Positions 5,210 to 46,021 of a stretch of DNA of 46,548 bases are shown here, in pieces. The stretch is from Halomonas sp. (GTDB lineage Bacteria; Pseudomonadota; Gammaproteobacteria; Pseudomonadales; Halomonadaceae). Position numbers and translations under genes: made by a program. How positions within the stretch are numbered: the first letter of the stretch is position 1; every line of letters begins with the position of its first letter. The notes below the pieces were generated by a model, which made no database searches, was not told the DNA's origin, and was given only the letters and a program-made list of their open reading frames with translations. The DNA is taken from positions 1 through 46,548 of the forward strand of contig NZ_JACUUD010000012.1 in the NCBI RefSeq assembly GCF_014859505.1. Direction: 5' to 3'.

Positions 5210-6645
5210 GCGATCTCCTCCCTGGAACGGTCGTCATCGAGCGGTGGAAAGGTGAGTGTCCAGCATAACCCACCCAGCGACGAGGACGAGGGGTGCATCT
5301 CGCCGCCATGGGCCTTGACCAGGGCCGCAGCGATGGAGAGCCCCAGGCCGCTGCCGCCGCTGGCGCGATTGCGCGAGCCCTCCACCCGATAGAGACGCTC
5401 GGTGAGCCGGGCAAGTTCGCCCTCGGGCACTCCGGGGGCGCTGTCCTCCCAGGTGACCCGGATGCCCTGCGCCGTGGCGTCGAGGTTGACCCGCAGCCGG
5501 CCCGGGGCCCGGGTATAGGCGCAGGTGTTGTCGAGCAGGTTGTTCCACAGCTGGCGCAGGCGCTGGACGTCACCGCGCATCCAGGCCTCGGCCTGGATGC
5601 GGGTCTCCAGGGTGATGCCGCTGTCGGTGAGCCAGCCTTCCGCCTCCTCGAGGCGGTCGGCGAGGCTCTCGGCCAGGTCCAGCGGCGCGAGCAGCACCTC
5701 CAGGGCGCCGGCGTCGCTCTGGGAGAGCAGGCGCAGGTCGGCCACCAGCCGCTCGAGCTGGCCCACCTCCTGGGCCAGGGAGTGCAGGCTGTCCTGGTCC
5801 AGGCGGCGGATGCCGTCCTGCATCGCCTCGATCTCACCGCGCAGCACGGCGAGCGGTGTGCGCAGCTCGTGGGCGATGTCCGAGACCCAGCGGCTGCGCG
5901 CCTCGCGGCTCGCCTCCAGGGTGGCGGCCAGCACGTTGAAGTCCCGGGAGAGCCGCGACAGCTCGTCCTGGCCGCGCTCCGGCAGGCGGATGCTGTAGTC
6001 GCCCTCGGTCAGACGCCGGGTGGCCAGGGCCATGCTGCGGGTGCGCCGCCCCAGCCACCAGGAGAGCCCGCCTGCCAGCAGCAGCGAGGCGACCCCCAGG
6101 GAGCCGACGATGATCGCCAGGTTGCGCTGCTGGCGGGAGAGGAAGATATGGTCCATGCGGGCCATCAGCTGCTCCGGGGGGCGATAGCCCAGGGTGCCGA
6201 CCTGCTTCCCCTCGTGGAGGATCGGCAGCCAGCGCAGGGTGGCGGCCTCCTCCTTGTCGTCCGGGGGCAGGCCGATCACCGGCAGGCCGGCGGCATCGTG
6301 GAGTACGAAGTCCTTGGGGGCACCCAGGCGGCGCTCGATGCCCTGGGGCGGCATGCCGGCCCCTGGCCACAGCTGTTGGCGCACCAGCCGATGCCAGGCC
6401 GAGGGCGAGGCCCGCAGCCACTGCCAGTCGCCGCCGCGACTCGCCCACTCCTCGCCGAGCCCCTCGGCCAGGGTCTCGGCGCGGTTGGCCTGGGTGGTGT
6501 CCAGGTACTCGATGAAGCCGCGGTCCAGGCTGCGCGAGATGCCCAGGAACACCAGGGCCGAGATGGCCACGTTGACCGACAGGATCACCACGAACAGCTT
6601 GACGCCCAGCCGGGAGACGGCGGGCCGGGGCAGACGCAGGCTCAT
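5206..6645 (-). CDS. baeS: Envelope-stress sensor histidine kinase BaeS
   Basis: A 479-residue sensor kinase: N-terminal helix (about 16-36), periplasmic domain, second helix (about 178-198), HAMP region, H-box with phospho-His at 259 (HELRTPLAVLRGE) and a C-terminal ATPase domain. The segments RGFIEYLDTTQANRAETL, MQDGIRRL and EGSRNRASGGSGLGLSI closely follow E. coli BaeS. It phosphorylates the adjacent BaeR. The start codon overlaps the end of a small upstream reading frame. Confidence in the family is high; the inducing signal is unknown. Confidence 0.88.
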   Translation of the reverse strand: MSLRLPRPAVSRLGVKLFVVILSVNVAISALVFLGISRSLDRGFIEYLDTTQANRAETLAEGLGEEWASRGGDWQWLRASPSAWHRLVRQQLWPGAGMPPQGIERRLGAPKDFVLHDAAGLPVIGLPPDDKEEAATLRWLPILHEGKQVGTLGYRPPEQLMARMDHIFLSRQQRNLAIIVGSLGVASLLLAGGLSWWLGRRTRSMALATRRLTEGDYSIRLPERGQDELSRLSRDFNVLAATLEASREARSRWVSDIAHELRTPLAVLRGEIEAMQDGIRRLDQDSLHSLAQEVGQLERLVADLRLLSQSDAGALEVLLAPLDLAESLADRLEEAEGWLTDSGITLETRIQAEAWMRGDVQRLRQLWNNLLDNTCAYTRAPGRLRVNLDATAQGIRVTWEDSAPGVPEGELARLTERLYRVEGSRNRASGGSGLGLSIAAALVKAHGGEMHPSSSSLGGLCWTLTFPPLDDDRSREEIA

Positions 6646-6836
6646 GGGGAAGCCTCCTCGGGTTGGGGGCTGCGACGCTGAAGGCGCTCGCGCACCTCCT
6701 CCAGCATCGGGTAGAGACAGGTTACCAGCAGCAGCTGCAGGTCGCTGAGTAAGGAGGTCGCCGGCAGGGGGCCGCGGCGACGGCGCCCGCGCTGGCGGTT
6801 CGGGCAGGCCGGGAAAGGGGGCAGGGAGCGACGCAT
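6642..6836 (-). CDS. Possible small protein overlapping the baeS start
   Basis: A 64-codon frame (MRRSLPPFPAC...) ends in a four-base ATGA overlap with baeS. The first half is basic; the second (LLSDLQLLLVTCLYPMLEEVRERLQRR) could form a helix. No clear ribosome site precedes this ATG, and an alternative start at 6926 is no better. The overlap suggests coupling, but it may be a chance open frame in the baeS leader. I do not recognise the sequence. Confidence 0.25.
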   Translation of the reverse strand: MRRSLPPFPACPNRQRGRRRRGPLPATSLLSDLQLLLVTCLYPMLEEVRERLQRRSPQPEEASP

Positions 6837-6942
6837 GGGCGACTCGGGCAGGAGGGCGGAATCCACAGCATCACCGGTGGCGATGCAGCCAATGGTCATG
6901 AAAGGTGCAAGCGGTATGCAAGCCATCGGCTGCTGGAGCGCC

Positions 6943-7863
6943 TCAGAGGGAGAGGAAGAACAGGATCAGCGGCGGCGAGAGCAGCGAGAGGATGAAGCCC
7001 GAGACCACCGCCACCGGCACGCAGGTCACCCCGCCGTGCTGCTGAATCACCGGCAGGGTGAAATCCATGGAGGTGGCGCCGCCGTAGCCGATGGCCAGGG
7101 CCGCATGGCGGCGGATCACCAGGGGGATCAACACGAAGGCCAGCAGTTCCCGGGCGAGATCGTTGAAGAAGGCCACGCCGCCCATGGCCGGGCCCAGGGC
7201 ATCGCCCACCAGGATGCCGGAGAGGGAGTACCAGCCGAAGCCGGCGGCGAGGGCCAGGCCTTCGCTGGCGCGCAGGTCCAGCAGCGGTGCAACGAGCAGG
7301 CCGCCGGCAAGCGAGGTGGCCGCCAGCACCAGGGCGATGGCCAGGCCGTGGCGGTTGAGCAGGATCTGGCGCAGCGGCATGCCGGAGTTGCGCAGCTGGC
7401 AGCCGATCAGTGCCAGCAGGGCATAGAGCACCCACTCGGCTAGTGTCTCGGCGGTGCCATGAAGCCCGGAGAGGGCGCGGCCCGCCAGCCCCAGACCGAC
7501 GCCCAGCAGCACCATCCCGACCAGAGCCAGGGAGCCGCCCATGGCGGCGAGCTTGCTGACCGGGGCGCCGGGTACTACCCGACTGGGGTCGGCGCGCAGG
7601 GCGAGGCGGCTCGACAGCCACCACAGGCCGGCCAGGTTGCAGGCCGTGATCACCAGGAACAGGGCCAGCGCCTGCCCGCCCATGCGCGACAGCTGGCCGG
7701 CCAGGTCGTCCAGCCCGGCCAGGCCGATGCCCATCAGCAGCAGGATGACGTAGACCGAGGCGTTCGCCCCGCGGTTGATCACTGCCATGGTCCCGGCATG
7801 GCGAACCGGCACCAGATAGCCCAGCACCAGGGGCAGCAGGACGATCACGAGTCCGCTCAGCAT
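6943..7863 (-). CDS. lysO: Lysine exporter LysO family membrane protein
   Basis: A 306-residue inner-membrane protein with about eight helices. The segments GFGWYSLSGILVGDALG, NDLARELLAFVLIPL and GGATSMDFTLPVIQ match the LysO (YbjE, DUF340) family, which exports lysine and toxic analogues such as thialysine. The conserved acidic residue in TSMDFTLP is present. It is a stand-alone gene between a DUF3108 gene and baeS, all on the same strand. In other bacteria lysO can be governed by a lysine riboswitch; I see only a short GC hairpin at 7887-7903. Confidence 0.88.
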   Translation of the reverse strand: MLSGLVIVLLPLVLGYLVPVRHAGTMAVINRGANASVYVILLLMGIGLAGLDDLAGQLSRMGGQALALFLVITACNLAGLWWLSSRLALRADPSRVVPGAPVSKLAAMGGSLALVGMVLLGVGLGLAGRALSGLHGTAETLAEWVLYALLALIGCQLRNSGMPLRQILLNRHGLAIALVLAATSLAGGLLVAPLLDLRASEGLALAAGFGWYSLSGILVGDALGPAMGGVAFFNDLARELLAFVLIPLVIRRHAALAIGYGGATSMDFTLPVIQQHGGVTCVPVAVVSGFILSLLSPPLILFFLSL

Positions 7864-7982
7864 CGAGAGTCCCTTCCCTTTGCGATGACCGCCGCCGGCG
7901 GTCGAAAACCCGCTACTCTAACAGCCTGCCGGCCGGAAGGGAGGGGCTCGGTCGAGGAGCGAGCGCCGGTCCGTTGTGGGGA

Positions 7983-25636: not shown

Positions 25637-26593
25637 TCAGTTGACCAGCTCGCCCACGGTTACGATGCCGCGGTCGGCCAGCTGCATGGCGCGGGCGTCG
25701 TCCCGGGTCCACTCGGCCATGGAGCCGTCGTACATGCTGACATTCTCAATGCCGCCGATCTCGCTCAGCTGGAACCAGCCGCTGGCGGCCCAGTGGCCGG
25801 TATTGCAGAACGCCACGGTGGGCGCCTGGCGATCAAGCCCCAGGGCATCGATGCTGGCGTTGAGCCGCTCCGGCTCCAGGTAGTAGGCGCCGTCGCGCTC
25901 GACCAGGGCACCGTCATGGGGCAGGTTGACCGCGCCGGGAATGGTGCCGGGGGCGCGGGTGGCGGGGGACTGGGTCTCGCCAGTGAAGAAGCCCGGTGGG
26001 CGGGCATCCACCAGCGGCTCTTCGGCCTCCCGGGCCGCCTCCACCTCATCAGTGGTGGCCAGCAGATGCGCCTGCAGGGAGCCTGCAAAGTCGGTGGCCT
26101 CGGGCGCGTCGGGGGAGCCCGAGGCGACATCGAAGCCCTGGGCCTGCCAGCCGGCGAAGCCGCCGTTGAGGATCGTCACCTCGTCGTGGCCCAGTGCCTT
26201 GAAGGTCCAGTAGATCCGAGTCGCGCTGCCGAAGTCGGTGGGGCCCGTGCCGCCGGCGACCACCACCAGGGTGTCGTCGTTGCCGATGCCCAGGCCGCCG
26301 ATCAGCGCCTCCAGGTCGGCGACGTCCGGCATCATGCCGGCTACGTCGTCGCGTGTCTCTCGCCAGCCGGCATCGGTATAGCTGCTGAAGCGGCTGCCGG
26401 GGATGCGGGCGGCCTCGAAGCTCTCGCGGTCGCCGCCGTCGTCGATGGCCGAGCGCACGTCCAGCACCACCAGGCCGTCACTGCCCAGCTGCTGGTCGAG
26501 CCACTCGGCCTCGACCAGCGGCGCGGGGTGAACCGCATGCGCCTGGCCGGCGATGGCCAGGGCGCCGGCGGCGATGATCAGTCGGGATCTCAT
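25637..26593 (-). CDS. Periplasmic rhodanese-type sulfurtransferase
   Basis: A 318-residue protein with a signal peptide (MRSRLIIAAGALAIAGQAHA) and two rhodanese domains. The C-terminal active-site loop is CNTGHWAAS with C263 as sulfur carrier. The first domain has the structural elements VVLDVRS and ILNGGFAGW but no Cys. It would move sulfane sulfur from thiosulfate or a mercapto acid to an acceptor in the periplasm. The gene stands alone, with a 147-bp gap to its upstream neighbour. Confidence 0.87.
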   Translation of the reverse strand: MRSRLIIAAGALAIAGQAHAVHPAPLVEAEWLDQQLGSDGLVVLDVRSAIDDGGDRESFEAARIPGSRFSSYTDAGWRETRDDVAGMMPDVADLEALIGGLGIGNDDTLVVVAGGTGPTDFGSATRIYWTFKALGHDEVTILNGGFAGWQAQGFDVASGSPDAPEATDFAGSLQAHLLATTDEVEAAREAEEPLVDARPPGFFTGETQSPATRAPGTIPGAVNLPHDGALVERDGAYYLEPERLNASIDALGLDRQAPTVAFCNTGHWAASGWFQLSEIGGIENVSMYDGSMAEWTRDDARAMQLADRGIVTVGELVN

Positions 26594-27413: not shown

Positions 27414-28004
27414 TCATCTGCGCAGAGTGTCGAGCAGCAGGCCGACGGCCTGTCGGGCCTGATCGATGTCCGCGCCGCTCTTCAGCAGGGTCCTGAGTCC
27501 CGCCATGCCCATCGTCAGGTAGGTGGCCAGCGCCTCGGCGTCCCGCTCCTGTGCGATGTCGCCCTCGCGCTGGGCCTGGACCACCGCTAGGTGGAATAGC
27601 TCGGTGATGGCGGCCAGGCTCTGCCGCGCATGATGCGAGGGCAGGTCGCCGCGCTGGCCGAGCTCGGTGGCGGAGTTGAAGATCAGGCAGCCCAGGGCGG
27701 CGCGCTCGCTGCCGGCCTCGTCGGCCGTCTCGCGGAATAGCGCCTCGAGGAAGGTCATGGCCGTGGGGACGGTCTCCAGGCGCCGGCCTAGCCGGCCGAT
27801 CAGCGCCTCGCGATAGCGACGCAGGGCCTCGAGGAACAGCTGCTCCTTGCTACCGAAGGCCTGGTAGAGGCTGCTTCGCGAGATATGCATGGCCGCGAGC
27901 AGGTCCCGGGTTGAAGCGGCATCGTAGCCTCGGGCCCAGAAGACCTGCATGGCGGCGGTGGCAGCCTCGTCCGGGCTGAAGGCGATGGGGCGTCCTCGTG
28001 TCAT
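27414..28004 (-). CDS. TetR/AcrR-family repressor
   Basis: A 196-residue regulator. Residues 1-55 form a standard TetR DNA-binding domain (RGYDAASTRDLLAAMHISRSSLYQAFGSKEQL). The C-terminal domain carries a Cys in ALGCLIFNSATELG, a feature of TetR proteins that sense electrophiles such as NemR-like repressors. The start at 28004 gives MTRGRPIAFSPDEA, the normal family N-terminus. An operator core shared with the AhpD-like promoter overlaps its own upstream region, so autoregulation is likely. Confidence 0.88.
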   Translation of the reverse strand: MTRGRPIAFSPDEAATAAMQVFWARGYDAASTRDLLAAMHISRSSLYQAFGSKEQLFLEALRRYREALIGRLGRRLETVPTAMTFLEALFRETADEAGSERAALGCLIFNSATELGQRGDLPSHHARQSLAAITELFHLAVVQAQREGDIAQERDAEALATYLTMGMAGLRTLLKSGADIDQARQAVGLLLDTLRR

Positions 28005-28012
28005 GCTCTGTA

Positions 28013-28036
28013 ATTTAGTACCGATCGTTCCATAAA
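28013..28036. promoter_or_regulatory. TetR-type operator before tetR
   Basis: The core ccgatcgttccat (28021-28033) is identical to the core of the reverse complement of the 27363-27386 operator, with a weaker left arm. It sits about 10 bp before the TetR start codon, which fits negative autoregulation. Confidence 0.7.
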
Positions 28037-28155
28037 TCAAGGCCGCGACAGATCACGCTCGAGTTGCTATCGATGTAAGGAGACCCTAAATATGACGACA
28101 CAATCCCGAGGACACACTCCACCACTTGTGCCTCGGGGAAGAGGAGATGACCCGC

Positions 28156-30537
28156 ATGACCGAGCAGCATTCGCCGACCAGGCGCTTCTGGCTGGGTGGC
28201 CGAAGGGCCGCCGAGCAGGACCGGTTCTTCCGCGAGGCCCTGGAGCCGCTGGGCTGGGAGGCCGGGGACGAGCAGGAGTGGGACGCCGGCTGGGTCACCG
28301 GCATGCCCGACCCCGCCCAGTTTCGTCGGGTATCGCCGGCGCGCCGTCTCAACCACTTCCCCGGCAACACGGCGCTGACCATCAAGAGCCGGCTCCACGC
28401 GAGCCTTTCCACACTGCGCGAGCGCATCGTGGCGAGCCACGGGGCTGACAGCGACGCGGCGTCGCGGCTGGCGTTCTTCCCGCATTCCTGGGTGATGCCC
28501 CACGACTATCACGCCCTGCAGGAGGCCGCCCTGGCCAATCCCGAGCAGCGCTGGATCCTCAAGCCCACCAATGCCTCCAAGGGCAAGGGCGTGCGGGTGC
28601 TGCGCGACGCGGGCGAGGCACCGCTGGCGGCAGACTGGCTGGTGCAGGAGTACCTGGCGAACCCGCATACCATCCGCGGGCACAAGTATGTGCTGCGTCT
28701 CTACGTACTGATCAGCTCGCTGGAACCTCTCCGCGTCTATCTCTACCGGCAGGGCTTCGCCAAGCTGGCCTCGGAGCCCTGGGACCCTGAGGATGCCGAC
28801 AACCCCTACAGCCAGCTCACCAACCCGGACATCAATGCCCTCAACGACCGCGCCGAGGTGCCGGTGGAGTTCATCGACCTGGAGCGCTACCGGACCTGGC
28901 TGCGGGACCAGGGGCATGACGACGATCGCCTTTTTGCCCGCATCCACGACCTGGTGGCCTTGACGGCCATCTCGGGGGTGGATGCCATGCGAAGCCGCAC
29001 CGCCGAGGTGGGGGCCGACCCGCGAGGCTGCTATGAGCTGCTGGGGTTGGACTGCCTGGTGGACGATACCCTCAAGCCCTGGATCCTGGAGTGCAATCTC
29101 AGTCCCTCGCTGGGTATCTGTGCCGCCCCGGAGAGTGGCGGACGCATCGAGGAAGCGGTAAAGGGCGGTCTGGTGCGGGACATGGTCGCGCTACTGGATA
29201 TCCCCGGCATCGACGCGACGCAGCCCGAAGAAGACATGACCGCTGCACGTCTGGTCACCGAGGCCGAGGCGGAGCAGGCCAGAGCCGGCGACTTCCTGCG
29301 CTTGCTGCCGGCCGAGGAGCCGGCCCGGTACCTGCCGTTCTTCTCGCTGCCGACCCTGGCTGACCTGCAGCTGGCCGAGGGGCTGGCGGGCCAGTCCCTG
29401 CCGCAGCCGGTGCTGCAGCGCCGCCGGGTGGCGGAGCTGCTGGACGATGACCAGCTGGCGCTCCATGACACCCGCAGCGGTCACTACTATCGGCCCAACG
29501 ACACGGCGGCGATGATCTGGCTGCTGGCCACGGAGGGGCTGGACCCCGATGCCATCGTCGATCAGCTGGCCCTGGCCGCCGCCCAGACGGAGGGCTCCCC
29601 GGACCTGGCGGCCCTGCGGCGCGACGTCTGGTCCACCCTTGGGGAGTGGTGCCGCGATGGCCTGCTCTGTCAGCGTGGCCCGGCCCTGGACGACGCCCCG
29701 GCGACGGAGGCGGTGCCGACGGCCCGTGCCCGGCCACATCTGCTGCAGTTGGACCACGACGGCCAGCGCTGGGCGCTGGAGGTCGGCACCCCTGCGGCCC
29801 TGGCTCGGCTGACGCCGTTGTTCGGGGAGCGGCTCACCCCGCTTGACGAGTTGGCTGCGGTCGGGCTTCCGCGCCTGGCCCTGCTGCCCGGAGCGACCGG
29901 CTACGCCCTGGTGGCCGACCACGGGGTGGCAAGGACGCGACTGACGCTGGCCGAGCTCGTCCCGGCGCTGCTGGCCCACCTGGTCGGCGAGGCCGCGCGG
30001 CCCGGTCGCCCGGTGATCGATGCCGGCCTGCTGGTCACCCCGGAAGGGGTGGGGGTACTTTGCCTGCTGCCCGACGAGGCGGCCCGCCAGGCGCGGCTGC
30101 AGTGGCTGACGGCCACGGGGGGGGGCCTGACTCGCGGCGTGCGGCTGTCCTTGTCGGCGCCCGACGAAGCCGAGCCGCTGAGCCTGCCGCTGGCGATGCC
30201 CGCCGGAGAGGCCCCGGCGTCGACGCCGGACAGGGTGGCGATCCGGGCCGTGCTGGTGCCCGCCGAAGCGGAGGAGGCGATGGCTCCCGCCGGGGTGCTG
30301 GACGTCATGGGGGCGCTGCTGTCGCGCTGCATCACGGCGCCGGACGTGCCCCTGACACCTGGCGAGGTCACCGCCCTGAGCGAGTGGGTCTCCCGGCTGG
30401 AACGCCTCGCCGTGGGCGACGTCGATCATTCGCCCACGGCCGATCCGCTTATCGACTGGCTGACCGGCCGAGACGCTACCGTCAGTCGGTCGGTTGACCC
30501 GGCCATGGCGGGGAAGCGACGGGCATCGCGTCGTTGA
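28156..30537 (+). CDS. Tubulin-tyrosine-ligase-like (TTLL) ATP-grasp enzyme fused to a PqqD-like domain
   Basis: A 793-residue protein. Residues about 60-350 match TTL/TTLL amino acid ligases: ILKPTNASKGKGV (K136) binds ATP, VQEYLANPHTIRGHKYVLRL and YVLISSLEPLRVYLYRQGFA follow in family order, LTNPDIN holds a conserved Asn, and LKPWILECNLSPSL gives metal ligands E312 and N314. Residues about 421-505 resemble PqqD-type peptide-binding domains (ALHDTRSGHYYRPNDTAAMIWLL). Residues 515-793 are unassigned. TTLLs ligate Tyr, Glu or Gly to protein tails. The next gene encodes an acidic Glu/Gly/Ala repeat peptide, a plausible substrate. GAGGAG at 28141-28146 favours the ATG at 28156 over that at 28147. 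Confidence 0.82.
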   Translation: MTEQHSPTRRFWLGGRRAAEQDRFFREALEPLGWEAGDEQEWDAGWVTGMPDPAQFRRVSPARRLNHFPGNTALTIKSRLHASLSTLRERIVASHGADSDAASRLAFFPHSWVMPHDYHALQEAALANPEQRWILKPTNASKGKGVRVLRDAGEAPLAADWLVQEYLANPHTIRGHKYVLRLYVLISSLEPLRVYLYRQGFAKLASEPWDPEDADNPYSQLTNPDINALNDRAEVPVEFIDLERYRTWLRDQGHDDDRLFARIHDLVALTAISGVDAMRSRTAEVGADPRGCYELLGLDCLVDDTLKPWILECNLSPSLGICAAPESGGRIEEAVKGGLVRDMVALLDIPGIDATQPEEDMTAARLVTEAEAEQARAGDFLRLLPAEEPARYLPFFSLPTLADLQLAEGLAGQSLPQPVLQRRRVAELLDDDQLALHDTRSGHYYRPNDTAAMIWLLATEGLDPDAIVDQLALAAAQTEGSPDLAALRRDVWSTLGEWCRDGLLCQRGPALDDAPATEAVPTARARPHLLQLDHDGQRWALEVGTPAALARLTPLFGERLTPLDELAAVGLPRLALLPGATGYALVADHGVARTRLTLAELVPALLAHLVGEAARPGRPVIDAGLLVTPEGVGVLCLLPDEAARQARLQWLTATGGGLTRGVRLSLSAPDEAEPLSLPLAMPAGEAPASTPDRVAIRAVLVPAEAEEAMAPAGVLDVMGALLSRCITAPDVPLTPGEVTALSEWVSRLERLAVGDVDHSPTADPLIDWLTGRDATVSRSVDPAMAGKRRASRR

Positions 30538-30599
30538 CAGGCAGGTTGACGAGATACATTGGCAAGCCAGATTGGCAAGGTAGCTGGTACCGAGCAGAG

Positions 30600-30625
30600 G
30601 GCGGCGCCCACCCGTGGGCGCCGCC
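30600..30625. promoter_or_regulatory. GC hairpin between TTLL and the repeat-peptide gene
   Basis: A 12-nt inverted repeat (30600-30611 with 30614-30625) lies 63 bp after the TTLL stop. It may terminate or attenuate transcription from the TTLL gene, leaving the peptide gene to be expressed at a different level. Confidence 0.5.
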
Positions 30626-30633
30626 GAAGGGAG

Positions 30634-30657
30634 GCCAGCCTCGATGAGGAGGCTGGC
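30634..30657. promoter_or_regulatory. Second hairpin before the repeat-peptide gene
   Basis: A 9-bp perfect stem (30634-30642 with 30649-30657, loop gatgag) follows the first hairpin after 8 bp. The pair forms a structured leader or terminator region 74 bp before the peptide start. Confidence 0.5.
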
Positions 30658-30730
30658 GTCACTGCAAGACGGCGTGCTGAGGCATGCCGTCCATCGCATC
30701 GCGAGATGCACCACCGAGGAGATCATGACC

Positions 30731-31036
30731 ATGACACAACAAGACGAGAAGCGCCGCAGCCTGCTGGGGCGCCTGGGTCGACAGCTGGGCTACACGACCC
30801 CGGCGCTGCTGCTGGTCGCCAGCGGTGCGGCCTTCCAGGCAGTGGCCAGCGACACGGCCACCGAGCCGACCTACACCAGCGGTCAGGAAGCCCCGCTGAT
30901 GCTGGCGGAGGCCCATGCCGAGGGCGGCGCGGAAGGCGCCGGTGAAGCCCAGGGCGAGGCTGAAGCGGAAGGCGAAGCCGAGGGTGAGGCTGAAGGAGAG
31001 GCAGAAGGTGAGGCCGAGGGCGAAGCCGGGAACTGA
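30731..31036 (+). CDS. Acidic Glu-Gly-Glu-Ala repeat peptide, candidate TTLL substrate
   Basis: A 101-residue protein. Residues 1-20 are basic (MTQQDEKRRSLLGRLGRQLG), 21-38 hydrophobic, 39-58 variable, and 59-100 a low-complexity acidic tail of EGEA units. The N-terminus matches that of the cytochrome at 45320-46021 in KRRxLLGRLGRQLxY and in a following hydrophobic stretch. It could be a Sec or Tat signal, a membrane anchor, or a leader for the PqqD-like domain encoded just upstream. The tail resembles tubulin C-termini, the natural targets of TTLL enzymes. gaggag at 30716-30721 and alignment with the paralogue favour the ATG at 30731 over the one at 30725. The family is not recognised; the substrate role is inference. 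Confidence 0.8.
   Translation: MTQQDEKRRSLLGRLGRQLGYTTPALLLVASGAAFQAVASDTATEPTYTSGQEAPLMLAEAHAEGGAEGAGEAQGEAEAEGEAEGEAEGEAEGEAEGEAGN
30932..31032 (+). repeat. Coding 12-bp degenerate repeats (EGEA units)
   Basis: Tandem units encode Glu-Gly-Glu-Ala. Neighbouring units use different synonymous codons for Glu, Gly and Ala. That argues for selection on the protein pattern rather than fresh DNA slippage. Confidence 0.8.
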
Positions 31037-31058
31037 CGCCTCGCCAGCGACTGGCCGA

Positions 31059-31089
31059 GGGCCGGTCCGCGCGCCATGGGCGCCGGCCC
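31059..31089. terminator. Possible terminator after the repeat-peptide gene
   Basis: A 7-bp outer stem (31059-31065 with 31083-31089) encloses an inner cgcc/ggcg stem. It begins 23 bp after the peptide stop. There is no clear T-run, so this is tentative. Confidence 0.4.
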
Positions 31090-31142
31090 GGCCTTCCCCG
31101 AAGCTCTCATGTCACCCCACCGGCAACCTGGAGAACCCGGCC

Positions 31143-31709
31143 ATGACACAGCCTGTATCAGGACGACCCCACCCGCTGGAGGGGCTCATCGAGGAAAACC
31201 TCATGGCGCTGGCCCAGTTGAAGGGCCTGCTGGATGACCTGACGCCTGCCGCCTACCGACAGCCCTTCGGTGCGGACGGCCGCCATACCCTGGGCAAGCA
31301 CGTTCGACACATCATCGACCACTACGATGCCCTTCTTGGCGGCCTGGAGGCCGGTGGCCCCCGTCTCGACTACGAACACCGTCGCCGTGACGAGGTCCTC
31401 GAGCAGTGGCCCGCCCGAGCCGCCCGGCGAGTCACCGACCTCGAGGTCGCACTGCTGGCGCTGGCCGACCAGGCGCTCCCGGCGTCCCTGGCACTGGCCT
31501 ATCCCGTGGGCGAGGAGCCGTTGGCGCTGCCCACCAGCCTGGCGCGTGAGCTGGCCTTTCTGACCAGCCACACCATCCACCACATGGCGATCCTCGGCCT
31601 GCTGGCCGAGCAACTCGGTCTGGCACTGCCCGAGTCGTTTGGCGTTCACCCCTCGACCCTGCGCCACTGGCGGCGGGAAGCCCTGCCGGTGATGGCGGAG
31701 GGGGCGTGA
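31143..31709 (+). CDS. DinB-like four-helix protein
   Basis: A 188-residue protein with the DinB/YfiT-type helical bundle. Metal-ligand candidates are the His residues in GKHVRHIIDHYDALL and TSHTIHHMAILGLL, placed as in metal-dependent DinB hydrolases and thiol transferases. The specific reaction is unknown. GGAG precedes the start at a suitable distance, and the stop overlaps the next start by one base (TGATG), so it is co-translated with the DUF302 gene. It follows the repeat-peptide gene by 106 bp; a shared role is not established. Confidence 0.75.
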   Translation: MTQPVSGRPHPLEGLIEENLMALAQLKGLLDDLTPAAYRQPFGADGRHTLGKHVRHIIDHYDALLGGLEAGGPRLDYEHRRRDEVLEQWPARAARRVTDLEVALLALADQALPASLALAYPVGEEPLALPTSLARELAFLTSHTIHHMAILGLLAEQLGLALPESFGVHPSTLRHWRREALPVMAEGA

Positions 31710-32206
31710 TGGCCACGACGCGATGGGCCTCATGGCTGACGGTATGGCTGATGGTGCTGCTGCTGGCCGCTCCCGCCGCGGCCGACGCTCGCTGGCCCGA
31801 ACAGGGTTGGCGGGTCCTGCCGGTGTCATCGAGCTATGCCGAGCTGCTGGAGGCCCTGCGTGAAGCGGTCGAGGCGGAGGGCATGTTCATCGTCACCGAG
31901 GCAGGCCCCACCGAGGCGGCTGCCCGACGCGGCGAGACGATACCCGGTAACCGTGTGGTGGGGGTCTTTCGCAATGACTATGCCGTGCGCACCCTTCGCC
32001 TAAGTGTCCCGGCGATGATCGAGGCGCCGATCCGTTTCTATGTCACCGAGAATGATGACGGTATCGCCACCCTTGCCTGGAAGACGCCGAGCCATGTGCT
32101 GGCGCCTTACCTCGAAGAGGGCGGTGAGGCCCTGGCGGAGATCGGTCGGGAGCTCGATGCCGTGTTCGACGCCATCGGGCGCCGGGCCCGGGCCGCCGCG
32201 CAGTAG
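31709..32206 (+). CDS. DUF302 protein, exported
   Basis: A 165-residue protein with a hydrophobic signal (WLTVWLMVLLLAAPAAADA). The mature part has the DUF302 layout: a first helix with YAELLEALREAVEAEGMFIV, then VVGVFRNDYAVRTLRLSVPA and IRFYVTENDDGIATLAWKTPS. DUF302 is a small alpha/beta fold of unknown function, often exported. It overlaps the DinB-like gene by one base. A second DUF302 gene lies at 33779. Confidence 0.8.
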   Translation: MATTRWASWLTVWLMVLLLAAPAAADARWPEQGWRVLPVSSSYAELLEALREAVEAEGMFIVTEAGPTEAAARRGETIPGNRVVGVFRNDYAVRTLRLSVPAMIEAPIRFYVTENDDGIATLAWKTPSHVLAPYLEEGGEALAEIGRELDAVFDAIGRRARAAAQ

Positions 32207-32244
32207 CGAAGCCTTCTCAGGCCGAGTTCCGAGGAGAACCGCGG

Positions 32245-32352
32245 ATGGCATTCGAGACCCATCGAGAGCTCCCTGCTCCCAGGGACACCCTCATCGAAGC
32301 GGCGCTCATCGGTAACCTGATCTGGAGCTACGGCGATCTGCTGTTTGCATGA
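32245..32352 (+). CDS. Candidate 35-residue small protein
   Basis: A short frame encodes 35 residues, beginning MAFETHRELPAPRD and ending LIWSYGDLLFA. It is preceded by an excellent ribosome site, gaggag at 32231-32236, eight bases before the ATG. The C-terminal half is amphipathic to hydrophobic. It lies in a gap otherwise without genes. No family is recognised; translation is plausible but unproven. Confidence 0.4.
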   Translation: MAFETHRELPAPRDTLIEAALIGNLIWSYGDLLFA

Positions 32353-32495
32353 GCCGGAAGTCCGGTGCGCTGTCCCTCTTCCAGGCTGCCTATCTTCCTC
32401 TGTAAGCCTGTGCCGCCATCATCGACAAAGGGTCTCGCCGATGGGCAAGCACCCGGGCAATGTGTGAAATTTTCCAAGGTATCATGGAGGTGAAA

Positions 32496-32963
32496 GTGAG
32501 AAAGGCACTGGGTCTATTGCTGCTGAGGGTGTCGCTTGGCGGTCTGCTGCTGGTGTGGGGGGTGAACAAGATTGTCAATGTCGATCACAGCCTGGCCATC
32601 GCCGACAATTTCTATGCCGGCTTTCTGTCTAGCGAGTTCCTGTTGCCGCTGTGGGGCGTCTCTCAGCTGGTGATCGGCCTGCTGGTGATCATCGGGCTGG
32701 CCAGGCGGTGGGTCTATCCCCTGCAACTGGTGATCAACGGGGCGTCCCTGCTGGCCGTCTTCCCCTCGGTGATCGACCCGTGGGGCTGGTTCCTGGAAGG
32801 TACCAATGTGCTGTTCTATCCCTCATCGATCATCCTGGCGGCAAGCCTGGTGATGATGGCCTTTCGTGACGAGGACAGCCTCGCCCTGGATGCCAGGCGG
32901 AAGTCACGGCCCAGCACCTGGGTGGGGGGGCACCAGTGTGGCCAGGTGGTGCGCCAGAGGTAG
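32496..32963 (+). CDS. DoxX-family membrane protein
   Basis: A 155-residue protein with four hydrophobic segments, beginning KALGLLLLRVSLGGLLLVWGVNK, the usual DoxX N-terminus. Other family elements are LPLWGVSQLVIGLLVIIGLARR and the acidic/aromatic loop. DoxX-like proteins are inner-membrane proteins linked to redox processes, with no settled activity. The GTG at 32496 is chosen because GGAGG at 32486-32490 is ideally placed; upstream ATGs at 32484 and 32460 are alternatives. The C-terminal 30 residues are basic and poorly conserved in character. Confidence 0.8.
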   Translation: MRKALGLLLLRVSLGGLLLVWGVNKIVNVDHSLAIADNFYAGFLSSEFLLPLWGVSQLVIGLLVIIGLARRWVYPLQLVINGASLLAVFPSVIDPWGWFLEGTNVLFYPSSIILAASLVMMAFRDEDSLALDARRKSRPSTWVGGHQCGQVVRQR

Positions 32964-35924: not shown

Positions 35925-36791
35925 ATGTCAAAGCTGCTAGAACGCTGTGGCTACCGATTGAGCTGCTGGCTCTCCAGTCCGCGCCCCTGGCATCGGGTCG
36001 AGTCCCCTCCCGAGCCCGAGGCGCTGGCCTGCCTGCAGCCGGGCGATGTGCTGCTGGTCGACGGGTCTTCCCGGTTGAGCACGGTGATCAAGTACCTCAC
36101 CCAGTCCTCCTGGTCCCACGCGGCGCTGTTCGTCGGGCATGAGGTCGCACGGGATGCCGGTGGACGCGACGGCGACTGCTTCGTCGAGGCTGACCTGGCC
36201 GATGGGGTGAGGCTGGTGGGTGTCGACGAATTTCTCGGCTTGCCGTTGCGCATCTGCCGCCCGATGGGGCTGGCCCCCGAGGAGACCTCGACGCTGGTTC
36301 GATTCGCCTCCCAGCGGGTGGGGCATCGCTACGACCTGCGCAACATCGTCGATCTGGCGCGCTACCTGCTGCCGCTGCCCCCGGTCCCGATGCCCTGGCG
36401 CCGGCGCATGCTGGAACTGGGCAGCGGGGATCCCACCCGGGCGATCTGCTCGACCCTGATCGCCCAGGCCTTCCAGTCGGTTCGCTATCCGATCCTGCCC
36501 ATCGAGGCGTGGCAGGAGGATGAGCAGCGCTGCGTCGGATGCCGGCGGCGGACCCTGCGGCGTCGCCATCACAGCCTGTTCACGCCCCGGGATTTCGACC
36601 TGTCGCCCTACTTCCAGATCGTCAAGCCGGCGCTGCTGGGGGATTTCGACCCGCACTGCCTGCGCTGGGAGAATTCAGCGCAACGCCGCTCCCTCGTCGG
36701 GGTGGCGCCCGGGCAAGTCGAGCCATCGCCGCAGGTCCTCGGGCCGGTCGACGTCCCAGACGGTGGCGGGGCAGGCCAGGCGCCAGCCTAG
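35925..36791 (+). CDS. YiiX/YebB-like permuted NlpC/P60 cysteine hydrolase
   Basis: A 288-residue papain-like protein. The His of the permuted NlpC/P60 fold is H65 (SSWSHAALFVG) and the nucleophile is C175 (RAICSTLIAQAF), preceded by LQPGDVLLVDGSS. Relatives include lipid or peptide amidases. No signal peptide is obvious. A gaggagg site precedes the ATG. The last 39 codons overlap, in the opposite direction, the 3' end of the glycosyltransferase gene (36675-36791); these residues are Pro/Gly-rich and probably a run-on tail after loss of an earlier stop. Confidence 0.8.
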   Translation: MSKLLERCGYRLSCWLSSPRPWHRVESPPEPEALACLQPGDVLLVDGSSRLSTVIKYLTQSSWSHAALFVGHEVARDAGGRDGDCFVEADLADGVRLVGVDEFLGLPLRICRPMGLAPEETSTLVRFASQRVGHRYDLRNIVDLARYLLPLPPVPMPWRRRMLELGSGDPTRAICSTLIAQAFQSVRYPILPIEAWQEDEQRCVGCRRRTLRRRHHSLFTPRDFDLSPYFQIVKPALLGDFDPHCLRWENSAQRRSLVGVAPGQVEPSPQVLGPVDVPDGGGAGQAPA

Positions 36792-45319: not shown

Positions 45320-46021
45320 ATGTCACAACATGACGATAAACGCCGCAGGCTGCTCGGACGCCTTGGACGACAGCTGGCCTACTCGGCGCCGGTGCTCGCC
45401 CTGGTGGCGGGCGGTGTCACTCTGCATGCCACCGTCGGCGACGATGAGACCTCTCCACAGCTGGCGACGTTCTCTGCCACCTCATTGCTCTTCGCCAACG
45501 CTCATGCAGAGGCCCACGCTGAGGGAGGCGCCGAGGCGCAGGCGGAAGGTGAGGCCGAAGCAGAGGGCGAAGCCGAAGGTGAGGCAGAGGGGGAGGCGGA
45601 AGGTGAAGCGGAGGGCGAGGCCGAGGCGGGGTCTGCCGATGCCGTGCAGCGCCCAGCGGGCTACGAGCCGGCCTACAGCGATAGCGGCGATAACCCGCCC
45701 GAACTCCTGGCCCGCGGCGAGGAACTCTATTACGACACTTCGCTGAGCACCAACGGGTTCTCCTGTGCGACCTGCCACGGCAGCGATGGTCAGGACATGG
45801 GCTATAACCCCACCTTCGAGGAGGCCTTCCCCCACCGGGTGGCCATGGCCGAGAACCAGTTCGGCATGTCCGAGGTGTACGCCGACGAGATGGTGCAGAT
45901 CTGCATGGTGGCGCCGATGCAGGCAGACCCCCTCGACTGGGGCGGCGAGGCGCTACCGTCGCTCTCGGCCTACATGGTGGAGGTGCAGCGCCGCGTGTCT
46001 GGCCAGCCCCACGACCTCTGA
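45320..46021 (+). CDS. c-type cytochrome with acidic EGEA repeat and TTLL-peptide-like N-terminus
   Basis: A 233-residue protein. Residues 1-37 (MSQHDDKRRRLLGRLGRQLAY and a hydrophobic stretch) match the N-terminus of the peptide at 30731-31036. Residues 62-104 are the same acidic EGEA-type repeat. From about 115 a c-type cytochrome domain follows, with heme motif C149-A-T-C152-H153 and possible axial Met residues in ICMVAPMQADPLDW. It must be exported for heme attachment, so the N-terminus is a signal or anchor. The repeat may be modified by the TTLL encoded at 28156. GGAG at 45307-45310 supports the start. Confidence 0.85.
   Translation: MSQHDDKRRRLLGRLGRQLAYSAPVLALVAGGVTLHATVGDDETSPQLATFSATSLLFANAHAEAHAEGGAEAQAEGEAEAEGEAEGEAEGEAEGEAEGEAEAGSADAVQRPAGYEPAYSDSGDNPPELLARGEELYYDTSLSTNGFSCATCHGSDGQDMGYNPTFEEAFPHRVAMAENQFGMSEVYADEMVQICMVAPMQADPLDWGGEALPSLSAYMVEVQRRVSGQPHDL
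45509..45628 (+). repeat. Coding degenerate repeats (EGEA units) in the cytochrome gene
   Basis: Tandem 12-bp units encode Glu-Gly-Glu-Ala, with mixed synonymous codons between units as in the peptide gene at 30932-31032. Confidence 0.78.

Follow-up and report, generated by a model that had tools for sequence, protein, structure and literature searches.

A bacterial TTLL-type ligase fused to a PqqD-like domain and its acidic-tailed partner peptide: a candidate RiPP-like glutamylation system in Halomonas

The window analyzed here covers positions 1 to 46,548 of contig NZ_JACUUD010000012.1 from Halomonas sp. (assembly GCF_014859505.1; family Halomonadaceae). Three consecutive genes on its forward strand are the subject of this work: a ligase of the TTL/TTLL family with a PqqD-like domain, a short precursor peptide with an acidic tail, and a DinB-like protein. 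A fourth gene, further downstream, encodes a c-type cytochrome with the same kind of leader as the precursor (Table 1). A first-pass annotation, made from the sequence alone, had singled out the ligase and the peptide as a candidate peptide-modifying system.

Table 1. Features of the system in the window
Feature	Position	Strand	Basis
TTLL-PqqD-pseudoHprK ligase, 793 aa	28156..30537	+	Pfam TTL and PqqD, both above cut-off
TTL/TTLL ATP-grasp catalytic core, residues 62-321	28339..29118	+	Pfam TTL, TTLL6 alignment, invariant residues
PqqD-like domain, residues 436-504, presumed leader binder	29461..29667	+	Pfam PqqD
HprK_rel_A-like domain without Walker A motif, about residues 505-767	29668..30456	+	hhalign
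Intergenic stretch with three GC-rich hairpins, ligase to precursor	30538..30730	+	Fold z-score -5.2
Precursor peptide, 101 aa; leader about residues 1-62, acidic tail 63-101	30731..31036	+	ATG at 30731, stop to 31036
Five perfect EGEA units, residues 80-99	30968..31027	+	Codon comparison
DinB_2-superfamily protein, putative metalloenzyme, third core gene	31143..31709	+	Pfam DinB_2
c-type cytochrome with precursor leader and acidic AEGE-repeat linker, candidate second substrate	45320..46021	+	Leader, CxxCH

The catalytic core of the ligase matches Pfam TTL (PF03133) with an E-value of 1.9e-49 and 168.9 bits (cut-off 20.1); no NCBIfam model was reached by the protein, the best score being 23 of 70 bits. 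Eight residues (K136, G143, Q164, K177, R181, D299, E312 and N314) are invariant in all 80 aligned ligase proteins, and the Lys, Arg, Asp, Glu and Asn motifs align with those of TTLL6. The first-pass annotation had proposed a TTLL-type ATP-grasp enzyme with intact ATP and metal motifs fused to a PqqD-like domain, and both parts of this description hold, the second with 28.2 bits for Pfam PqqD against a cut-off of 23.4. The PqqD match recurs at E <=0.01 in each of the 11 relatives that make up the ligase profile A3, and weak matches of the domain among PDB structures are to TbiB1 and TfuB1. When profile A3 was compared with solved structures, the best match was TTLL6 (E 1e-51, profile positions 34-395), followed by TTLL7 (5.9e-43) and TTLL11 (8.4e-26). 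Much weaker were 5vlq, whose file name gives the LOC100158544 protein and which we take to be the glycylase TTLL3 (1.2e-13), and TTL itself (6.6e-12 at best). TTLL8 and TTLL10 are not among the structure matches, so the comparison within the TTLL family is incomplete.

The stretch C-terminal of the PqqD domain is given no family name by Pfam. Its nature emerged from an hhalign comparison of ligase residues 425-767 with two PqqD-HprK proteins from loci L133 and L134 (probability 98.9, E 3.9e-17), the first of which matches TIGR04352 HprK_rel_A with an E-value of 1.4e-26, under that model's cut-off. Both of these kinases have an intact P-loop (SGNGKST and SGSGKST). In the ligases, the motif GxxxxGK[ST] is found after residue 400 in none of the 80 aligned proteins, one of which has a degenerate AxxxxGKS. 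Given the homology to HprK and the missing P-loop, the ligase can be read as a TTLL catalytic part on a PqqD-pseudo-HprK platform that would bind the substrate. The names given to ligase homologues in databases, among the matches listed, range from amylase and tubulin polyglutamylase TTLL5 to hypothetical protein and PqqD family peptide modification chaperone, and such labels hide the system from view.

The gene that follows encodes, as the first-pass annotation had stated, a peptide with a leader and a tail of EGEA repeats. The leader is conserved across the family: over 17 diverse leaders the start Met, L11, L15 and P24 are invariant and A37 is nearly so, and in the leader profile A2 R8 is invariant as well. 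R8, L11, L15 and P24 make up the motif R-x-x-L-x-x-x-L-x(8)-P. Its layout comprises a basic start, a hydrophobic stretch and an end of small residues, with a second short hydrophobic motif before the tail. The tails of 52 small peptides consist of 41% Glu, 25.5% Gly and 24.5% Ala, and the spacing from one Glu to the next is exactly 2 in 635 of 787 cases. Lys, Ser and Thr are all absent from 19 of the 52 tails, and 51 lack Thr. One precursor, from a Lysobacter metagenome-assembled genome (MAG), has repeats of the AEAEAAAEAHP type. Ten pairwise comparisons of the five EGEA units in the window yielded 27 differences in 120 bases, all 27 at third codon positions and synonymous. The protein repeat has therefore been kept while the DNA drifted, which indicates selection on the acidic sequence and rules out a microsatellite or recent slippage as the origin of the repeat. 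A conserved leader and a variable core beside an enzyme with a leader-binding type of domain are the marks of a ribosomally synthesized and post-translationally modified peptide (RiPP) system, and the PqqD domain presumably binds the precursor leader. In the Chromohalobacter- and Modicisalibacter-type loci L071-L074 and L077, the ligase is followed by a tandem of two distinct peptides with acidic tails, and one of the two has SPEA-type repeats.

A genome survey of co-occurrence had been proposed by the first-pass annotation as the check on the pairing of ligase and peptide, and its outcome speaks for the pairing. Among 250 genomes of the family (genome handles agree across the searches for the ligase, the leader by profile A2 and the DinB-like protein; the listing of genomes lacking a match covers only part of them), 67 have the ligase, 68 the leader and 66 both. 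The leader is found in 66 of the 67 ligase genomes compared with 2 of the 183 others (Fisher p 6e-57, a value that is too strong because the genomes are related). The exceptions are few. The sole ligase genome without a leader, G077, holds only a ligase remnant, in which a single junction fuses residue 204 of the ligase to residue 154 of the DinB-like protein and the peptide is gone; this points to loss of the system as a unit. The leader genomes that lack a ligase are G008, where the leader belongs to a gene of the cytochrome type, and G085, where the match is weaker (E 2e-4) and no acidic tail was found. In G005 and G219, the ligase lies on one contig and the peptide and DinB-like genes on another, and all of them are kept.

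At the level of individual loci, 51 were examined, 50 of them with a ligase, and a sequence pattern found the small peptide in 47. It missed L079 (a ligase remnant), L136 (no ligase), and L145 and L043, in which peptides were seen otherwise. In all, 49 of the 50 ligase loci have a small peptide, downstream and on the same strand, or 47 of 48 when the repeated contigs L083 and L084 (of L039 and L042) are set aside. The pairing of ligase and leader is repeated in two further families, the Halofilum-type loci L129-L131 and the Marinobacter-type loci L144-L145. Profile A3 matches 10 of 369 genomes of the class, namely its own, three of Halofilum type with strong matches (in one, G638, over profile positions 1-476 only) and six with weaker TTL-only or PqqD-HprK pieces. 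Among 341 genomes of the order, it matches six: that of the window, two others from the family, a pair of Marinobacter type and a weak one. The leader profile A6 matches four of 321 class genomes, these being its own, two Halofilum-type genomes with the ligase, and G518 weakly (7e-5). Names were taken from the best 120 of 493 and the best 120 of 412 matches, with the 8000 best candidates scored each time. The ligase homologues listed there come from Halomonadaceae, Halofilum, Alkalilimnicola, Aquisalimonas, Natronocella, Sediminicurvatus, Marinobacter and Tamilnaduibacter, and from proteobacterial MAGs including Lysobacter sp.; the bacteria that carry the ligase are mostly salt-loving, halophilic or halotolerant. 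When the leader was searched against a database, 75 proteins were obtained. Those that carry a source name belong to Halomonadaceae, Marinobacter, a Lysobacter MAG and Alkalispirillum, and these groups also hold the ligase, with the exception of Alkalispirillum, which is not among the ligase names listed. A partnership between the ligase and the precursor is, on this evidence, strongly supported.

The third gene follows the same distribution. Its product matches Pfam DinB_2 with 40.7 bits (cut-off 24.8), and six histidines (H53, H56, H60, H143, H146 and H147) and a Y-E-x-R-x-R motif are identical in all 48 DinB-like sequences, two of which come from repeated contigs. The gene is present in 66 of the 67 ligase genomes, G077 retaining a remnant of 28 residues, and in none of the 183 other genomes of the family. 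A separate search of 12 ligase-less genomes of the same genus also found none, the positive control for which is supplied by the survey of 250 genomes. It was not found in the Halofilum-type locus L131. No NCBIfam match was obtained for four members of the DinB-like group, and no useful relatives among solved structures. The ligase, precursor and DinB-like genes are inherited as one unit, and they probably form a functional trio in which the DinB-like protein may modify or trim.

The leader is also found on a quite different protein, the c-type cytochrome. In the window, the CxxCH domain of this protein matches SoxA/TsdA-type cytochrome c (E 1.7e-5, under the model's cut-off). Ten genes with a leader, an acidic repeat and a cytochrome were collected in the survey of 51 loci, and there are further ones. 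In the Marinobacter-type loci L144 and L145, the ligase, small peptide, DinB-like and cytochrome genes follow one another in this order on the same strand, with one extra open reading frame called between the last two in L145. In the L144 cytochrome version, AQGEAEGE follows at once on the PSAEA with which the putative signal ends. Because the attachment of haem c takes place outside the cytoplasm, the leader of the cytochrome version should direct export; by extension, the small peptide is probably exported by its leader too. By residue criteria, which are not those of a signal-peptide predictor, a net charge of at least 2 is found in 49 of 52 small and all ten cytochrome precursors, and a hydrophobic stretch with a mean of 1.6 or more in 41 of the 52 and nine of the ten. 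Export through the twin-arginine translocation (Tat) pathway is not favored, the RR pair being present in only 40 of 52 small and five of ten cytochrome precursors.

Between the ligase and precursor genes, the intergenic stretch is predicted to fold into hairpins. A z-score below -2 was obtained by a rough shuffle for 18 of the 33 such stretches measured, mostly from Halomonas, a further 17 having been left out for their length. No Rfam family was found in 27900-32500, and a known RNA element between the genes was accordingly rejected. The hairpins possibly set the ratio of peptide to ligase. Other genes around the system were considered as core parts without gaining support: none of DUF302, AhpD/CMD, TetR and DUF3047 was found in the five Halofilum- and Marinobacter-type loci, where a sigma factor has a single match, at 28% identity. 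A plasmid-borne element was rejected, the ligase having no match in a plasmid collection, as was anti-phage defence, with no PADLOC match for four proteins.

Several neighbors recur near the ligase. A papain-like amidase of the C92 (YaeF/YiiX) type, at 35925-36791 in the window, is found in 10 of 24 near and 2 of 18 more distant loci of the family, in none of three Halofilum-type loci and in both Marinobacter-type loci; it is conceivable that it removes isopeptide-linked residues. A rhodanese protein (25637-26593) lies near the ligase in three families (16/24, 13/18, 1/3 and 1/2 loci), in L131 and L145 near a gene of the Sulf_transp/YeeE type, and together with the SoxA/TsdA-type cytochrome it hints at a sulfur theme. 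In an attempt to use it as a marker of empty sites, a rhodanese was found in all 12 ligase-less relatives, with more than 60% identity only in G014 and G022. A DoxX gene stands between ligase and peptide in L129 (5410-5829), with relatives in all three Halofilum-type loci, and another is at 32460-32963 of the window. Finally, locus L132 of genome G471 (5923-7968) encodes a TTL-only protein of 367 residues followed by a protein of 248 residues with a twin-arginine-like leader ending in VVLPAHAQTS, perhaps another pairing of a TTL enzyme and a substrate.

What might such a trio do? With a probability of roughly 0.6, we favor a RiPP-like system that modifies peptides and proteins. The leader would be bound by the PqqD/pseudo-HprK part of the ligase, and the TTLL part would attach amino acids, of which glutamate is the likeliest, to the glutamates of the tail before export. 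The platform would capture the leader through its R-x-x-L-x-x-x-L-x(8)-P motif, and the TTLL domain would then use ATP to form isopeptide bonds between the incoming amino acid and the side-chain carboxyls of tail Glu residues, possibly extending the added chains. The leader would double as export signal and take the modified tail, in some proteins with its cytochrome c domain, across the cytoplasmic membrane, on the far side of which it would form a highly acidic brush or linker. A second enzyme, the DinB-like protein, would modify or trim. TTLL enzymes form isopeptide bonds on Glu side chains, and a review relates suggestions that polyglutamylases select Glu residues within Gly-Glu motifs (PMC9117372). 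Of the options that the first-pass annotation had listed (Glu, Gly, Tyr or another amino acid, on Glu side chains or the C-terminus), the nearness of the ligase to TTLL6, TTLL7 and TTLL11 over TTL, combined with tails rich in Gly and Glu, favors the attachment of glutamate to Glu side chains. Its alternative of addition to the C-terminus, in the manner of TTL, is not favored, because the C-termini of the precursors vary and a folded domain closes the cytochrome version. The overall picture drawn by that annotation is supported in part and was incomplete: it had missed the pseudo-HprK domain, the export-type nature of the leader, the DinB-like gene and the cytochrome partner.

Several observations weigh against this reading. 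Relatedness and shared synteny inflate the co-occurrence counts within the family. All eight distant relatives of the ligase have a PqqD match (E up to 1), which in seven of them is under the Pfam cut-off. An export-type leader would compete with modification in the cytoplasm. Genome G008 has the gene for leader, acidic repeat and cytochrome without the ligase or the DinB-like gene, which suggests that the acidic linker may serve some separate purpose, and G251 has ligase and peptide without the DinB-like gene. Several Marinobacter tails are rich in Lys and misfit a purely acidic rule. Nearness to TTLL6, moreover, does not prove which amino acid is donated.

A bolder version of the proposal, which we put forward tentatively and consider less likely than not, sees the system as an envelope counterpart of the tubulin code. 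Here, exported EGEA peptides would receive branched chains of glutamate from a TTLL enzyme recruited onto a dead PqqD-HprK leader reader, as would the linker of a c-type cytochrome, with leader binding delaying export until the writing is done. The DinB-like metalloenzyme would edit or erase, and the product would be a polyglutamate brush outside the membrane.

The same system might instead use glycine, tyrosine or some other amino acid. TTLL relatives include glycylases and TTL, and the core structure that is common to the family (PMC9117372) gives a fold that does not reveal the donor; a few precursors also end in Tyr (GY three times and AY once among 52). We regard this as unlikely, given that the glutamylases TTLL6, TTLL7 and TTLL11 are far better matches than either 5vlq or TTL. 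Less likely still is that the peptide serves as a ligand, scaffold or decoy of the ligase and that another protein is modified. The link between ligase and peptide is one of co-occurrence and domain logic only, and the TTL-only relative in G471 adjoins a quite different leader protein, which leaves some room for such a role. However, one leader is shared by two carriers of the tail, the small peptide and the cytochrome, both of which keep Glu-rich repeats, and the EGEA repeat is under selection at the protein level. Cross-linking of tail Glu to Lys, Ser or Thr side chains by ester or amide bonds, as in graspetides, would be in keeping with the Lys-rich tails of some Marinobacter precursors and with the chemistry of microviridin-type ATP-grasp ligases, but with 19 of 52 tails free of all three nucleophiles it cannot be the general chemistry, the enzyme is of the TTL/TTLL family, and we give the idea very little credence. 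Equally improbable are chance neighbors held together by the synteny that surrounds them across Halomonas, with the tail an unmodified flexible linker or anionic spacer of the kind common in anchored cytochromes and kept without the ligase in G008: synteny alone is ruled out by the recurrence of the pairing among mostly other neighbors in the Halofilum- and Marinobacter-type genomes, by its survival of relocation to separate contigs, by the joint loss in G077, and by the 183 other family genomes with two leaders and no DinB-like gene.

No paper was found on TTL with PqqD, on TTL in ATP-grasp RiPPs, on a Halomonas TTL or on ATP-grasp glutamylation of ribosomally synthesized peptides in literature whose coverage leaves out most subscription journals, so that an earlier description is possible; what was found instead concerns RimK and its proteases, SidJ, CDC123 and TTLL12. 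The combined observations suggest a route to glutamate-branched peptides that has yet to be described. TTLL enzymes are known as modifiers of microtubules, and a bacterial branch with dedicated peptide partners would provide a small, genetically tractable model of how donor and site are chosen. Such a branch would be a further RiPP-like class, with export-type leaders on its precursors and a possible extension to a full protein, the cytochrome, and one may ask which role a side-chain-branched acidic polymer would have in the envelope of mostly salt-loving bacteria.

Among known systems, graspetides of the microviridin type also employ ATP-grasp ligases that act on acidic side chains of a ribosomal peptide. 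Their cross-links need nucleophiles, which are lacking in the 19 precursor tails mentioned above, and the ligase described here belongs to the TTL/TTLL family instead. The HprK_rel_A (HPr-rel-A) systems are homologous over ligase residues 425-767, and their leaders resemble the precursor leader. In L133 and L134, the PqqD-HprK kinases stand beside small peptides with the leader RR-x-F-L-K-K-A-G-K-F-A-V-Y-T-P-P-A, L133 having an NTP_transf_5 gene as well, and the cores of the two peptides differ widely. Compared with 17 precursor leaders, the L133 leader beat all 300 shuffles in nine cases, and in the other eight it was reached by 1 to 12 of them. This suggests, if weakly, that leader and reader in the two kinds of system have a common origin and that the catalytic part was swapped. 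The differences are that HprK_rel_A systems have a kinase with a P-loop and basic or mixed cores, whereas the ligase has a TTLL part, no P-loop and acidic cores, and that no nucleotidyltransferase such as theirs was found among the ligase neighbors examined.

Bufferins and other MNIO-modified RiPPs have precursors with Sec signal peptides in place of typical leaders, to which the export-type leader described here is similar, and DoxX genes occur near both. Signal peptides on such precursors are termed highly unusual for bacterial RiPPs, doxX genes are reported in many of the clusters, and the authors speculate that the signal is masked until modification is complete (PMC12452194). By analogy, such masking could apply to the precursor described here. 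The bufferin system relies on an oxidase (MNIO), whereas here the enzyme is a ligase and the tails have no Cys motifs; no match to MNIO or DUF2063 was found in the proteins scanned with Pfam, which represent part of the open reading frames of the loci. RimK, likewise bacterial and of the ATP-grasp type, attaches glutamates to a protein (PMC4431377). It belongs to another ATP-grasp family and its substrate is ribosomal protein S6 rather than an exported peptide. To our knowledge, RimK has no leader-binding domain. With the polyglutamylases TTLL6, TTLL7 and TTLL11, the ligase shares its catalytic core, its motifs and an acidic, Gly-Glu-rich presumed target. Those enzymes are eukaryotic and act on tubulin, whereas the ligase is bacterial, is fused to PqqD and pseudo-HprK parts, and presumably acts on a dedicated and probably exported peptide or cytochrome.

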